Below, piece after piece: positions 17,995 through 22,073 of a stretch of DNA of 64,000 nucleotides (positions are counted from its first letter, which is position 1; each line of letters begins with the position of its first letter). The notes under the pieces are model-generated. The model saw only the letters and a list, made by a program, of their open reading frames with translations, did no database searches and was not told the DNA's origin. The translations under genes were made by a program, and so were the position numbers. Source of the stretch: Prolixibacteraceae bacterium (GTDB lineage Bacteria; Bacteroidota; Bacteroidia; Bacteroidales; Prolixibacteraceae); assembly GCA_028377305.1 (NCBI GenBank), contig JAONJW010000005.1, positions 1-64,000 of the forward strand. Reading direction: 5' to 3'.

Positions 17995-19593
17995 TTACTC
18001 AAATCCATTCAGAGGTACCGTTACAGTGGGGATCAGTAGCAGTAGTCCAACCAGAATAAGAATAATCATCAATGGAGTGATCCACTTTACCCATTTAGGA
18101 TATGGAATCTTAGCAACTCCCAAAACCCCTACAAGAATACCCGAAGTAGGCGTGATCATATTCGTAAAACCATCTCCAAATTGAAAAGCCATCACGGTAG
18201 CTTGTCGTGAAATGCCGATAAGATCAGAGAACTGTGCCATCATCGGCATAGTCAGTGCTGCTTTACCAGATCCAGAAGGAATAATAATATTTAAGAAAGT
18301 CTGGAAACCATACATCATCCCCACCGATGACACTTTCCCCATATCGTTCATTGCTGTGGAGATGCCATACAAAATCGTATCGATGATCTTACCATCTTTT
18401 AGTATCACGATAATTCCTCCTGCCAATCCAACAACCAATGCAGCCGATAGAATATCTGCAGTTCCTTCAATAAATAGTTTGGTAATCTTATTACCGTTGT
18501 TACCTGCCGCAATACCACCAAAGACTCCCATAGCAAGAAACAGAGACGCAATTTCGCCCACATACCAACCATAGCCCATGGCACCAACAATCAACAGAAG
18601 GATAGTGAATAATAGAAGGTTTAAAACAAAGTAGTGTACAGTCTTACGAAGCGAAAGGGCACCCATCACAACAAACATTCCTGCCAAAATAGGAAATGCT
18701 CGAAATGCAATCACTGCCTGTCCTATCTTAAGATCCGTAACAGGATATTGAAATGCAATGCTAATCAGAAACACCGACAAAAAAGTATACACCACATACG
18801 CACTAGTAGGAAGGTAGTATGGGTTTTCCTCTTCTGTATTCTCCTCTTTGTCTCGCCAATATTTATCTTCTTCATATACCAACGAACTTTGTGGATTCTT
18901 ACGAATCTTGTGGGCATAGCGTAGAATAAAAGTGAAGCCCACAAGATTAATAACCACCCAACAGAACAAACGATACTCAATCCCACTAAATGGTTGAAGG
19001 TTGGATAGTCCTTGTGCAATACCAATGGTGAAAGGATTTAGAATGGCTCCTGCAAATCCCAATCCAGCAGCTACAAAACATAGTGCTACACCTAAAAGGG
19101 AGTCATACCCCATCTTGACGGACAAAGGAACAAAGATGATGATAAAGGCGATGGTCTCTTCGCTCATCCCAAAGACCGCTCCAAAAATACTGAACAAGAG
19201 CATAATCATCACAAAAATAATATTGTCCACCCCAATCTTCTGTATCCACTTTACGTGTTCGAATCTCTTCAAAGAGTTCAAAAACGATGTAATCCCTACA
19301 TCGATAGACTTACTGTCGTTTATAATCCAAAATGCACCCCCGATAATCAGGATAAATGCTATAATATCTGCCGCATTTGTAAAGCCTGTGAAAAAGGCTG
19401 AAAACACTTGCCACGACTGTGGAACACTATCTTTAAATTCAAAAGAGTTGTTCACAACAACCTCTCTATTAACACCATTTACATTGACAATCTCTCTAGC
19501 ATACTCTCCGCCAGGAACGATCCATGTCATGACTGCAGAAAGAAGGATGATTCCAAAAATAATCACATAAGTGTGAGGAATTTTCTTAAGCAT
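17995..19593 (-). CDS. YfcC/DcuC-superfamily membrane transporter
   Basis: A 532-residue polytopic inner-membrane protein with about 12 hydrophobic segments. It begins with the typical KKIPHTYVIIFGIILLSAVMTW and a periplasmic WIVPGGEY loop, and carries the conserved FGMSEETIAFI loop (~residue 143) and the second half-repeat IIPSGSGKAALTMPMMAQFSDL (given here only in part in meaning: Ser/Gly-rich substrate hairpin at ~430). These are hallmarks of the YfcC/ArcD-like branch of the DcuC superfamily, whose members move amino acids, peptides or carboxylates; the substrate cannot be told. Its start overlaps the end of the CPBP protease gene by 8 bp, so translation of the two is probably coupled. Confidence 0.88.
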   Translation of the reverse strand: MLKKIPHTYVIIFGIILLSAVMTWIVPGGEYAREIVNVNGVNREVVVNNSFEFKDSVPQSWQVFSAFFTGFTNAADIIAFILIIGGAFWIINDSKSIDVGITSFLNSLKRFEHVKWIQKIGVDNIIFVMIMLLFSIFGAVFGMSEETIAFIIIFVPLSVKMGYDSLLGVALCFVAAGLGFAGAILNPFTIGIAQGLSNLQPFSGIEYRLFCWVVINLVGFTFILRYAHKIRKNPQSSLVYEEDKYWRDKEENTEEENPYYLPTSAYVVYTFLSVFLISIAFQYPVTDLKIGQAVIAFRAFPILAGMFVVMGALSLRKTVHYFVLNLLLFTILLLIVGAMGYGWYVGEIASLFLAMGVFGGIAAGNNGNKITKLFIEGTADILSAALVVGLAGGIIVILKDGKIIDTILYGISTAMNDMGKVSSVGMMYGFQTFLNIIIPSGSGKAALTMPMMAQFSDLIGISRQATVMAFQFGDGFTNMITPTSGILVGVLGVAKIPYPKWVKWITPLMIILILVGLLLLIPTVTVPLNGFE

Positions 19594-20431
19594 GTTGATC
19601 TGTTTTAGTTATAATTGGTCTCTTAAACCAGCGATAATTGTTTTTTTTCCTTGTTGCAAAAATAATCATTGCAAGGGTAATAAATATGACAATTCCATGG
19701 ATTAGGTTATTTTGTGGATTGTGTCGTAGTAGCGAAACCTCCGAGATAGGTTTCCAAAATACAATCGAGAGGTAAACCAACCCATTGTGAATACTGTGAC
19801 CTGCAATAGCTGCCCATATAGAACCCGTTTGAACTCGTAAAATCCCTACCATCACACCCAAAAGAGTGGCGGGAATAAACTGCCATGGATTCATGTGAAA
19901 AAAACCAAACAGTAGTGCCGACACAATAATGGCCTTGGTTTTCGAGTAATTACGAAGAAACCCATTCATAATGACTCCTCTAAATATCAACTCCTCGATG
20001 AGTGGCCCAATTAAAACCACCTTAGCAATACCAATCCACTGTGAGGGGGCACGCTCAAAAATTCGGGCAAACAACTGATTGAACCAATCGGGTACTGGGA
20101 TCACTTGACTAAACCAAGTGTTGATGTCGGCCATATAATACTGCACCGAAACATCCAGTACAATAAAAGGTAGTAGCAGCCACACTGCAAAACTTTTAAA
20201 TGGGAACACATCTTTATGAGAAAACCCCGAACTCTTATACCCATAAAAGAGAATAAAAAAGGTAGACCCCACAAACACCGGATAGGAGACCCAAGGACTA
20301 CTCAAATACGACGTGCCATTATGATAGTCATGCAGTGCGATTGGCAACTCTATAATCGCTTGTATAAACGTGTACAGTCCGATAATAAATAGCGATGCCC
20401 ATATATTTGGATAAAACTGTTTCTGTTGCAT
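19586..20431 (-). CDS. CPBP family intramembrane metalloprotease
   Basis: A 281-residue membrane protein of the CPBP (CAAX protease/bacteriocin-processing, Abi) family. All three motifs are present: EELIFRG (EExxxR, about residue 150), FGFFHM (FxxxH, ~185) and GHSIHN (HxxxN/B, ~225). About seven membrane segments are predicted. Bacterial members are glutamic-type intramembrane proteases; targets are mostly unknown. It is the first gene of a two-gene unit with the YfcC-type transporter (8-bp overlap), which suggests a linked function such as handling of a peptide or amino-acid product, though this is inference. The 985-bp repeat-bearing gap lies upstream of it. Confidence 0.92.
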   Translation of the reverse strand: MQQKQFYPNIWASLFIIGLYTFIQAIIELPIALHDYHNGTSYLSSPWVSYPVFVGSTFFILFYGYKSSGFSHKDVFPFKSFAVWLLLPFIVLDVSVQYYMADINTWFSQVIPVPDWFNQLFARIFERAPSQWIGIAKVVLIGPLIEELIFRGVIMNGFLRNYSKTKAIIVSALLFGFFHMNPWQFIPATLLGVMVGILRVQTGSIWAAIAGHSIHNGLVYLSIVFWKPISEVSLLRHNPQNNLIHGIVIFITLAMIIFATRKKNNYRWFKRPIITKTDQHA

Positions 20432-20599
20432 AATATTCTTGTCTCATTACAAAATAGTGCCTACACAAGACACTCTCAACCCACGAAGATAGTGATTCAC
20501 CGAGGATGATACAAGATAACAAATGTTATTGGTATACTATAGAATACTTAAGACTTTCCATTTCAACCGGACACCTACTTCCCGCTATAAGGTAATGTC

Positions 20600-20754
20600 T
20601 TCAAAGCACAATCATACTTCCTCCAAAGCGTATCAACACTGTTTCCCCAGTGCATTGATAATGACTCCAAAGCATAATCATACTTCCTCCAAAGCACAAT
20701 CATACTTCCTCCAAAGCACAATCATACTTCCTCCAAAGCGTATCAACACTGTTT
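20600..20754. repeat. 22-bp direct-repeat array
   Basis: Four copies of a 22-bp unit (consensus TCCAAAGCACAATCATACTT plus CC) lie at 20600-20621, 20666-20687, 20688-20709 and 20710-20731; the last three are strictly tandem. Copies 1 and 4 are each followed by the same 23-bp variant, TCCAAAGCGTATCAACACTG plus TTT (20622-20644, 20732-20754). Between them, TATCAACACTG and CAGTGCATTGATA make a small imperfect hairpin (20631-20660). The unit is not a multiple of three and has no spacers, so it is neither a coding repeat nor a CRISPR array. Confidence 0.9.
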
Positions 20755-20768
20755 TTCCTATGAAATAA

Positions 20769-20970
20769 CAGTGCCTTAACCTATACCTAATCCGTATCTA
20801 ATCTGTACCTAATCCGTTGATTTACCATGGTTTCTCAATCATTCCCCCATGGTTGGTCCATCGATTTAACATTTTCGGTGGGCCAACCATGGGTAATCCT
20901 TTAAGAATGGATAGGGGATCTACGGATTAGGTACAGATTAGATACGGATTAGGTATAGGTTAAGGCACTG
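20769..20970. repeat. Perfect 49-bp inverted repeat with nested inner palindrome
   Basis: The arm 20769-20817 is the exact reverse complement of 20922-20970 (49 of 49 bp). The inner 33 bp of each arm are three 11-bp units: ACCTAATCCGT, ATCTAATCTGT, ACCTAATCCGT (20785-20817). The 104-bp loop holds a second inverted repeat, CCATGGTTGGTCCA (20848-20861) against TGGGCCAACCATGG (20878-20891), with one mismatch. The whole block can fold into a long cruciform or RNA hairpin. I see no TAnnTTTG promoter in the loop on either strand. It lies 15 bp from the 22-bp array, and the two unit lengths (11 and 22) share helical phasing. Confidence 0.93.
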
Positions 20971-21416
20971 TCTGGTAGTATCAAGTTGTTGTCGAAGTAG
21001 TATTCCGGTAGTATTAAGTATTGTCAAGGTGTTATGGTATCTGGTTAAGTTAGGGTTGAGGGGGGCAGCTGAATTAGGATGATATAGGAGTATTTAATGA
21101 ATGGATCTTCGATCATTCGGCAGAAGAAATTTAAAGTTGGAAAATGTACTGATTTATGCTGATTTTTTTGTAAATTAAAGGGTTACTTGATTGGGTTACA
21201 GGTTGTTGTTGTTTGTGTTTTTGACAATGTGTAGTCAACGTGCCACGATCTCCAATTAGGTACATATTTTTGATGTCTGGATCTCTCTTTTTTGATGAAA
21301 ACAGAGGCATCGAAGATGGTAAAACAATTTTATTAACCTATTCCGAAAGCTTTTTCTCTTCTCCCTGTTTTAGGGGTAAGGTGTTGTAGTGTTTCGGATC
21401 TTTAAAACAAAAAAAG
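20971..21416. other. Gap between the inverted repeat and the DUF6266 gene
   Basis: About 445 bp without a supported gene. A TATTTTTG at 21265-21272 fits the -7 element and could drive the gene at 21417 with a leader of about 140 nt. Two short GGTAGTAT(T/C)AAGT-like direct repeats lie at about 20974 and 21008. No other structure was recognised. Confidence 0.45.
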
Positions 21417-22073
21417 ATGGCAATTATTAAAAGAGGGCGCCTAAGTGGTGCCGTTGGCCCTATCGTTACCTATCATGTTAAAGGTAAAGAGATTGTGCGA
21501 TCACGTCCGGAGAAGCGCACCAAACAGTCACCGAAACAGCTATCACAGCAGGTTCGTATGAAACAGACCATTGAGTTTCTCTCTGGCATACGAGATGTTG
21601 TTCGTTGTAGCTATCCTTCAGAACATCCTTTCTCCAATGGACATGTCTTGGCTCGGGCTGCTATTCTTCGCAATGCTTTTGCGGGGATCTATCCAGATTT
21701 AACTTTCGATTTTTCAAAAGTGCCACTGAGTAGTGCTCCGGAGTGTCGTATCGCTTCAATTTCGGCAAACTATCGTGACGGGTGGTTGGATCTAGAGGTC
21801 GAGCTTAAGGGGGTGACGGATAAGAGAGGACTCTCACTTGTGGTGGTGCATGAAGCTGGAGAAGCCACCATACAGACCTTTAGTTATGGACCGTTTCCAT
21901 ATAGCAAAGAGAATCGCTATTCGTTGGAAGTGATGCGTCGTGAGAGTCATGGTGCGGTACAGCATTTCTGGGTAATGCTTTGCTATCCTTTTAGATTGGA
22001 GTATATGAAGAGTTGCTACTTCAGTCTGTCAGAAGAAGATCCTTCTCCTAAAACGGTCTACTATAGTGACTAG
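21417..22073 (+). CDS. DUF6266 family protein
   Basis: A 218-residue protein with the DUF6266 pattern: a basic N-terminus MAIIKRGRLSGAVGPIVTY, then a KGKEIVRSRP segment and a Gln/Arg-rich helix (SPKQLSQQVRMKQ), followed by a strand-rich domain with two Ig-like halves. The family is confined to Bacteroidota and its function is unknown. It stands alone between the repeat locus and an unknown membrane-protein gene; its base composition looks somewhat richer in G+C than the flanking AT-rich gaps. A perfect hairpin follows the stop. Confidence 0.8.
   Translation: MAIIKRGRLSGAVGPIVTYHVKGKEIVRSRPEKRTKQSPKQLSQQVRMKQTIEFLSGIRDVVRCSYPSEHPFSNGHVLARAAILRNAFAGIYPDLTFDFSKVPLSSAPECRIASISANYRDGWLDLEVELKGVTDKRGLSLVVVHEAGEATIQTFSYGPFPYSKENRYSLEVMRRESHGAVQHFWVMLCYPFRLEYMKSCYFSLSEEDPSPKTVYYSD

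Follow-up and report, generated by a model that had tools for sequence, protein, structure and literature searches.

The locus considered here, an intergenic inverted repeat made of 11-bp units, raises the question of what such a structure is and what it does. It lies within a window of 64,000 nucleotides (the whole stretch of DNA that was analysed) from a Prolixibacteraceae bacterium, the genome of which (G000; 154 contigs, 77% complete) was compared with three other genomes of the genus (G001, G002 and G003), G001 and G003 being single-contig chromosomes. A first-pass annotation of the window had offered four options, namely an invertible segment, a protein-binding locus with helically phased sites, the end of a small mobile element, or a highly structured RNA.

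The inverted repeat and its neighbours

The arms of the inverted repeat had been placed at 20769-20817 and 20922-20970, and pairing analysis bore this out, with exact pairing found to extend one base further on each side, giving a perfect inverted repeat of 50 bp (20768-20817 with 20922-20971). Near-pairing ran inward from there to a 10-nt loop (20768-20864 with 20875-20971; 97 nt, 82% complementary). Tandem-unit analysis recovered the 11-bp units that had been described within each arm. The 104-bp loop between the arms does contain a stem of its own, as had been proposed, though this occupies 19 positions rather than 14 bp (20846-20864 with 20875-20893; 17 of 19 Watson-Crick pairs and two G.T), and it is also present in the RNA fold. 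The fold of 20740-21000 reached -143.8 kcal/mol, whereas shuffled sequences averaged -62 (sd 4.5, z -18.18, 0 of 200 shuffles), a difference large enough to exclude chance. The features of the locus are as follows.

19586-20431, minus strand: left neighbour, an Rce1-like (CPBP) membrane protease gene (Pfam; conserved flank in four species)
20602-20739, plus strand: flanking tandem array of 22-bp (2 x 11) units, unrelated in sequence (tandem-repeat analysis)
20768-20817, plus strand: left outer arm, with 11-bp-phased units at its end (TAATCCGTATC / TAATCTGTACC / TAATCCGT; pairing and tandem-unit analysis)
20818-20921, plus strand: 104-bp core, opposed 11-bp-phased motif arrays about a palindromic centre (model R1 match)
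20858-20881, plus strand: centre, consisting of CCATCGA, a 10-nt middle and TCGGTGG (sequence and comparison of copies)
20922-20971, minus strand: right outer arm, the exact inverse of the left arm (pairing analysis)
21417-22073, plus strand: right neighbour, a DUF6266 gene (Pfam; conserved flank)

Model R1 matched the window core along its whole length (84.5 bits, E 4.7e-12), and the middle of its centre is of a type common in G000, most copies in other species having different middles. Pfam matches among the window neighbours were to DcuC, Rce1-like and DUF6266 proteins, the last having 46-64% amino acid identity in the other three species, and no recombinase was found by Pfam among the six neighbouring open reading frames (ORFs). 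The 22-bp flanking array was not seen in the three orthologous spacers; a listed 81-aa ORF at 20523-20768, which overlaps these repeats and has no Pfam match, is probably not a gene.

In all four species, the element is situated between the protease and DUF6266 genes in one orientation. An invertible segment, as suggested previously, was not supported, given that the directional centre has a single orientation in the assemblies of the four species.

A dispersed family with a constrained phase and length

A DNA search of G000 retrieved the window copy along with more than 20 diverged relatives dispersed across the genome, and the element was present in all four genomes of the genus. The first-pass annotation had recommended both searches and had regarded a lone copy, absent from close relatives and showing neither orientation change nor transcript, as pointing to a chance fold-back duplication; as regards further copies and presence in relatives, the outcome was the opposite. 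The family comprises at least 29 loci in G000 (at least 28 model loci, and C111 from the DNA search), at least 38 in G001, at least 62 in G002 (at least 60 model loci and two from a pattern search, of which a few located at contig ends may represent two halves of a single site) and 38 strong loci in G003, where the weakest scored 80.9 bits on its better strand and the next locus 50.4. The covariance model was built on 55 aligned copies from the four species, selected from 79 listed stretches by excluding near-duplicates, 117-bp copies and those whose orientation was unclear (L005 and L020 were turned round on visual inspection); its first pass scored 150 candidates per genome. No locus was found with this model in 17 genomes of 17 other genera.

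In pattern searches, the sequence TAATCYGTNNNTAATCYGT matched G000 42 times on one strand and 45 times on the other, with none for a reversed control pattern, and among 41 genomes it occurred only in G000 and its congener G003. A core pattern was matched 8, 5, 56 and 15 times in G000, G001, G002 and G003, respectively. Each of 136 further genomes from the family had between zero and two matches, with any match at all in 18 of them. Viral contigs contained no match to two exact patterns of the element, and nothing on such elements appeared in literature listings. Short contigs bearing the core pattern (L163, L164 and L194) were retrieved from MAGs named Marinifilaceae McD1.32 and Vallitalea McD1.14, and are possibly misbinned Prolixibacteraceae DNA; the same search returned one match from Pleionea.

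Each element consists of two opposed 11-bp-phased motif arrays about a palindromic centre. From the centre outward, the inner units are built around CATGG..TT, followed in G000 and G003 by outer units of TAATCCGT. In the 55-copy alignment, invariant columns and those conserved to at least 90% return with a period of 11 bp, and gaps are confined to the loop and ends (the 117-bp copies being left out). The core spans 105 bp in all 38 strong G003 loci, whilst the 38 listed G001 copies, measured on the better strand, span 106 bp in 29 cases, 117 bp in seven and 95 bp in two, indicating that length changes in steps of 11. The element is also directional, in that the inner units carry TTTGT on one side and CTGAA (G003) or AGGAA (G002) on the other. 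The right arms of G001 are degenerate, and a strict palindrome detector passed 96 of 159 loci; the window copy, at 50 bp, has the second-longest perfect run in the family, against a median of 10 for the 124 copies measured of 159.

The middle of 10-12 nt is mostly species-typical, with three exceptions, all in G000. In these copies (C79, C85 and C88; L022, L018 and L026), the centre is of the G003 or G002 type and not of that found in their own genome. One protein encoded beside L022 shares 99% identity with its relative in G003, possibly as a result of recent transfer.

The positions of the elements are shared between species. With gene sharing defined as at least 45% identity within two genes, 10 cross-species locus pairs shared genes on both sides and 33 on at least one side. 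The window spacer can be aligned across species at the element itself, near the start of the protease gene and patchily towards DUF6266, and is largely unalignable elsewhere; a second orthologous spacer pair gave a similar pattern. The element positions are thus old. The host spacers are long, with medians between 682 and 1122 bp by genome, although gene contexts and spacer lengths are approximate, as longest-ORF gene calls were used; 11 of 57 centres fell inside a called ORF of 240-447 bp, and these ORFs were taken as spurious. Of 149 spacers classified by flanking gene orientation, 49 were divergent, 36 and 32 tandem and 32 convergent, another 10 of the 159 loci having no called gene on one side. 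Five G003 copies (L095, L096, L100, L101 and L104) are located about 0.8-0.9 kb upstream of rRNA operons, two of these operons being identified by Rfam and the other three from the positions of tRNAs and from sequence identity. A G001 copy (L125; model hit 4270606) likewise precedes a 16S rRNA gene, the distance to 16S being about 0.7-0.9 kb over the six copies.

A GTGTAAATTAAACTCTGTC-like motif was observed near elements, for instance in L304 (about 810-825 and 1215) and in the flanks of G000 and G003 elements. It lay within 600 bp of a centre in 22 of 23 G000 matches, where loci reach 1.5 kb out, and in 22 of 24 G003 matches, where they reach 3 kb. Elsewhere there were five matches in G001, five in G002 and two in 400 kb of G073, a member of another genus; the window contained none.

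Spacing along the chromosome and a second family

The distribution of copies was compared with random placement over all positions, and not over spacers alone. The 38 copies in G001 were separated by gaps of 43-261 kb, with a coefficient of variation (CV) of 0.40 against 0.96 for random placement (0 of 100000 as even). Exclusion of 43 kb alone would, by our own arithmetic, give a CV of about 0.64. On the G002 contigs of known length, 61 copies provided 36 within-contig gaps, the smallest of which was 15.9 kb, compared with 0.66 kb as the median under random placement (0 of 5000). The smallest gap between G003 copies, at 27.6 kb, was above random (P=0.0002), and was the only unusual property of this set, the evenness of which was unremarkable when taken alone (CV 0.80, P=0.10).

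A second family was encountered at an orthologous locus. In G000, an element of the family described above (type 1) is found upstream of a putative glycosyltransferase gene, the ortholog of which in G002 also has a type 1 element. The G003 ortholog is instead preceded by an element of unrelated sequence (type 2), comprising outer CTTCGTGTCTC and inner ATTGGTCATAT units in opposed arms, and the G001 ortholog by a 324-bp spacer without an element; the far neighbour at this locus is, by eye, the same one only in G001 and G003. A DNA search for type 2 yielded 18 loci in G003, two short traces in G000 and none in G001 or G002. Seventeen of the 18 loci were displayed (scores 18-32), and in most of these the palindromic 11-bp anatomy was visible by eye.

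Types 1 and 2 together form 56 sites in G003, with a smallest gap that is again 27.6 kb. Type 2 avoids type 1 (circular-shift P 0.0003-0.0014 on four measures, corresponding to 0.03-0.14% of shifts), and random type 2 placement gave a combined CV as low as that observed in 2.6% of cases. Eight consecutive type 2 sites occupy 2.03-2.43 Mb of G003 (P=0.0014), as if a block of the chromosome had changed type; the count of neighbouring type 2 pairs was less striking (P=0.034).

It had been predicted beforehand that the large gaps would be filled by further arrays. Such gaps do hold additional 11-bp arrays (L336, L339, L342, L345, L351 and L353 in G003; L357, L362, L363 and L364 in G001), which belong to new sequence types 3 and 4. 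Gap-filling was nevertheless not supported, because a control of 194 kb from small G003 gaps also holds three such arrays and because G001 is without a control. Type 3 (GAATGAACTTC, ACCGTATTGAA) was seen in G003 at L336 17043-17311, L339 1349-1896, L345 15973-16190, L368 17784 and L373 7300, the arrays in L368 and L373 coinciding with weak covariance-model matches. Type 4 (TTACCCTTAAG / GTTACCCTTTG) was seen at L351 19912-19990 and L353 2929-2972 in G003 and at L357 7929-8019, L363 6384-6453 and L364 17429 in G001, with opposed arms discernible by eye in several of its arrays. Types 3 and 4 share the 11-bp phase of types 1 and 2 but not their spacing, the distances of 22 weak-hit proxies from these two types being random. 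The 400 kb of G073 contained no period-11 non-coding array and one of period 22; the sole palindrome signal in this genome (L288) proved to be a masked run of N.

A putative chromosomal landmark and its alternatives

Judged from sequence, we see an even chance that the element is a DNA-level chromosomal landmark, a putative site for a chromosome-organising protein. Of the four options in the first-pass annotation, the protein-binding locus with helically phased sites would be the best fit to the phase, length steps, motif and positions described above. A phased and opposed array, length changes in steps of 11 bp, distance from copies of its own kind and a spacing held in common with an unrelated array are together best explained by a nucleoprotein landmark, from which we infer protein binding, wrapping or polymerisation and a role in chromosome organisation. 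With an 11-bp phase, every helical turn would present a single contact, all of them facing the same way along the double helix to the left and to the right of the centre, and a protein making these contacts might wrap the DNA or extend outward over the two arms as a polymer. Some 40-60 sites of this kind, at least 16-43 kb apart, could then divide the chromosome into segments acting as units of anchoring, supercoiling or segregation.

Known systems provide partial parallels. In E. coli, 23 matS and 50 SlmA sites are dispersed and mark chromosome regions (according to passages of PMC3116907), and dispersed sites with a non-random chromosomal pattern were likewise found here; homology is not implied by this likeness to matS/MatP and SlmA, which involve single sites of 13 and 12 bp, whereas the present elements are long phased arrays found over the whole chromosome. 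In type II plasmid partition, parC carries iterons of about one turn (10-bp repeats, split into two blocks in R1) upon which ParR forms a helical wrap (passages of PMC5016525), so that a phase of this kind can be read by polymerising. We do not claim membership of that system, in which the repeats are tandem, of the same orientation and confined to one locus upstream of a par operon, whilst here the arrays are opposed and occur at dozens of loci.

Several considerations weigh against the landmark reading. A weak 11-bp periodicity is described as characteristic of bacterial genomes in general (PMC4132750), and it is disputed whether DNA is bent by it (PMC7537859). Species vary in how many sites they carry and of which type, the type 1 sites of G003 have a CV of 0.80, types 3 and 4 break the spacing, and there was no replichore bias in the orientation of G001 copies (10 plus and 9 minus on one side, 9 plus and 10 minus on the other, with ori and ter guessed).

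REP elements have an associated Y1 transposase, and the present family could be a REP- or MITE-like repeat spread in the past by a transposase that has since disappeared or that works in trans, with its spacing due to target immunity or to deletion of close copies. This we regard as unlikely, albeit deserving of some weight. It would account for dispersed multi-copy palindromes, for near-identical inner cores with species-typical centres in G002 and G003, as after amplification, for the empty 324-bp spacer of G001 and for the three G000 copies whose centre is of a type seen in other species. However, no isolated arm was seen in G000, where five loci have a double unit on one side only and a degenerate partner or contig end on the other, and Y1_Tnp, the sole transposase family searched, was absent from G000 and from G002, the genome with the most copies (one was found in G001 and two in G003). 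Together with the lack of viral matches, these results leave the end of a small mobile element, as proposed initially, without direct support. Furthermore, positions are common across species, single-element immunity would not cause two unrelated families to avoid each other, and G001 is more even than exclusion alone would produce. By the REP definition used (extragenic, multi-copy, palindromic and with a consensus in common; passages of PMC12306157), the element resembles REPs in that it is palindromic and intergenic, and has a consensus and tens of dispersed copies, subject to the 11 of 57 centres within called ORFs and the 96 of 159 loci passed by the strict palindrome detector. E. coli REPs, however, measure 14-40 nt and show no clear clustering or periodicity along the genome (same passages), whilst the present element is much longer, with a core of about 105 bp (104-106 bp) that reaches about 220 bp with its arms, is built of 11-bp arrays and has copies that are spaced apart.

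A site akin to the strong gyrase sites, with arms wrapped by the GyrA C-terminal domains and a centre that is cut, fixing the entry points of supercoils, is a rather improbable alternative. E. coli gyrase reads a symmetric 130-bp motif with GC phased at 10.75 bp (passages of PMC6379681; the motif is repeated in part of PMC12393610), so a phase of this kind can be read by wrapping, although neither homology nor membership is claimed. The size and symmetry of the present element are comparable with this motif and with the strong site of phage Mu, as is its phased GC, which over 60 bp either side of the centre oscillated with a best period of 10.4-11.7 bp (122 copies), and two sequence-unrelated families of equal phase would suit indirect readout. 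Yet specific bases, and not GC phase alone, are invariant across species, in many near-identical copies. Strong gyrase sites are also enriched downstream of transcription units (passages of PMC6379681), whereas gene orientations here are mixed; the lack of any preference for convergent spacers and the copies upstream of rRNA argue against a plain role in gyrase relief.

It is very unlikely that the elements are operators of a transcription factor regulating neighbouring genes. Divergent spacers are the commonest class and five G003 copies precede rRNA operons, as operators might; but every gene orientation occurs, convergent pairs included, and mutual spacing would have no reason among operators.

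Even less probable is a structured RNA, in which case transcription of the locus would yield the long hairpin as a functional or processed product. The fold is very stable. Pairing was compared within and between copies oriented alike (12 of 23 loci in G000, 31 of 38 in G003, 20 of 38 in G001 and 59 of 60 in G002, the others being dropped for an unmatched centre pattern or an arm running off the locus). Over the inner 45 bp, an arm matched its own partner to no greater extent than it matched that of another copy (P 0.06, 0.10, 0.51 and 1.0 in G000, G003, G001 and G002, respectively). Over the outer 50 bp, pairing was better within than between copies in G000 (0.732 against 0.607) and G003 (0.628 against 0.540; 0 of 2000 shuffles for each), and there was no such advantage in G001 or in G002. 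The outer arms are thus homogenised or selected as pairs in G000 and G003, and pairing is not a common property of the family. An excess of G.T over A.C mismatches, found in half of the eight arm classes (G003 inner 137:41, G003 outer 149:106, G001 inner 119:62, G002 outer 370:244), would also be in keeping with an RNA, but the G003 inner excess is largely one fixed asymmetric unit common to the copies, the G002 outer stretch falls mostly beyond the element, and the two mismatches were near parity in the other four classes (40:31, 44:49, 108:107 and 111:112). The cross-species consensus fold retained 15 pairs with a covariation term of only -0.22 kcal/mol, the right arms of G001 are degenerate, and no Rfam family reached its gathering score over 20400-21420 (three microRNA-type matches and one RAGATH match fell below threshold). 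Little therefore speaks for the highly structured RNA suggested at first; what is conserved is phase, motif and spacing, and not inner-arm pairing.

Finally, a chance fold-back duplication or assembly artefact, to which three G000 copies at contig ends (C106, C114 and C144) might point, is refuted by copies in two single-contig chromosomes and by the element at an equivalent locus in four species.

Returning to the landmark reading, an extension of it that we put forward only tentatively is that the genus maintains a spacing-controlled set of interchangeable sites, the identity of which would lie in the 11-bp phase and opposed-array design and not in any one sequence. Unrelated families would then fill alternate slots, and the difference in type between species at the glycosyltransferase locus might be an instance of this. 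Selfish DNA alone hardly accounts for repeats that keep their distance chromosome-wide and across unrelated families. Were the sites interchangeable in this way, they would amount to a system of landmarks for the entire chromosome, recognised by an as yet undescribed protein that wraps DNA or polymerises on it, and if they organise the nucleoid, they would provide a testable entry to chromosome organisation in the Bacteroidota.
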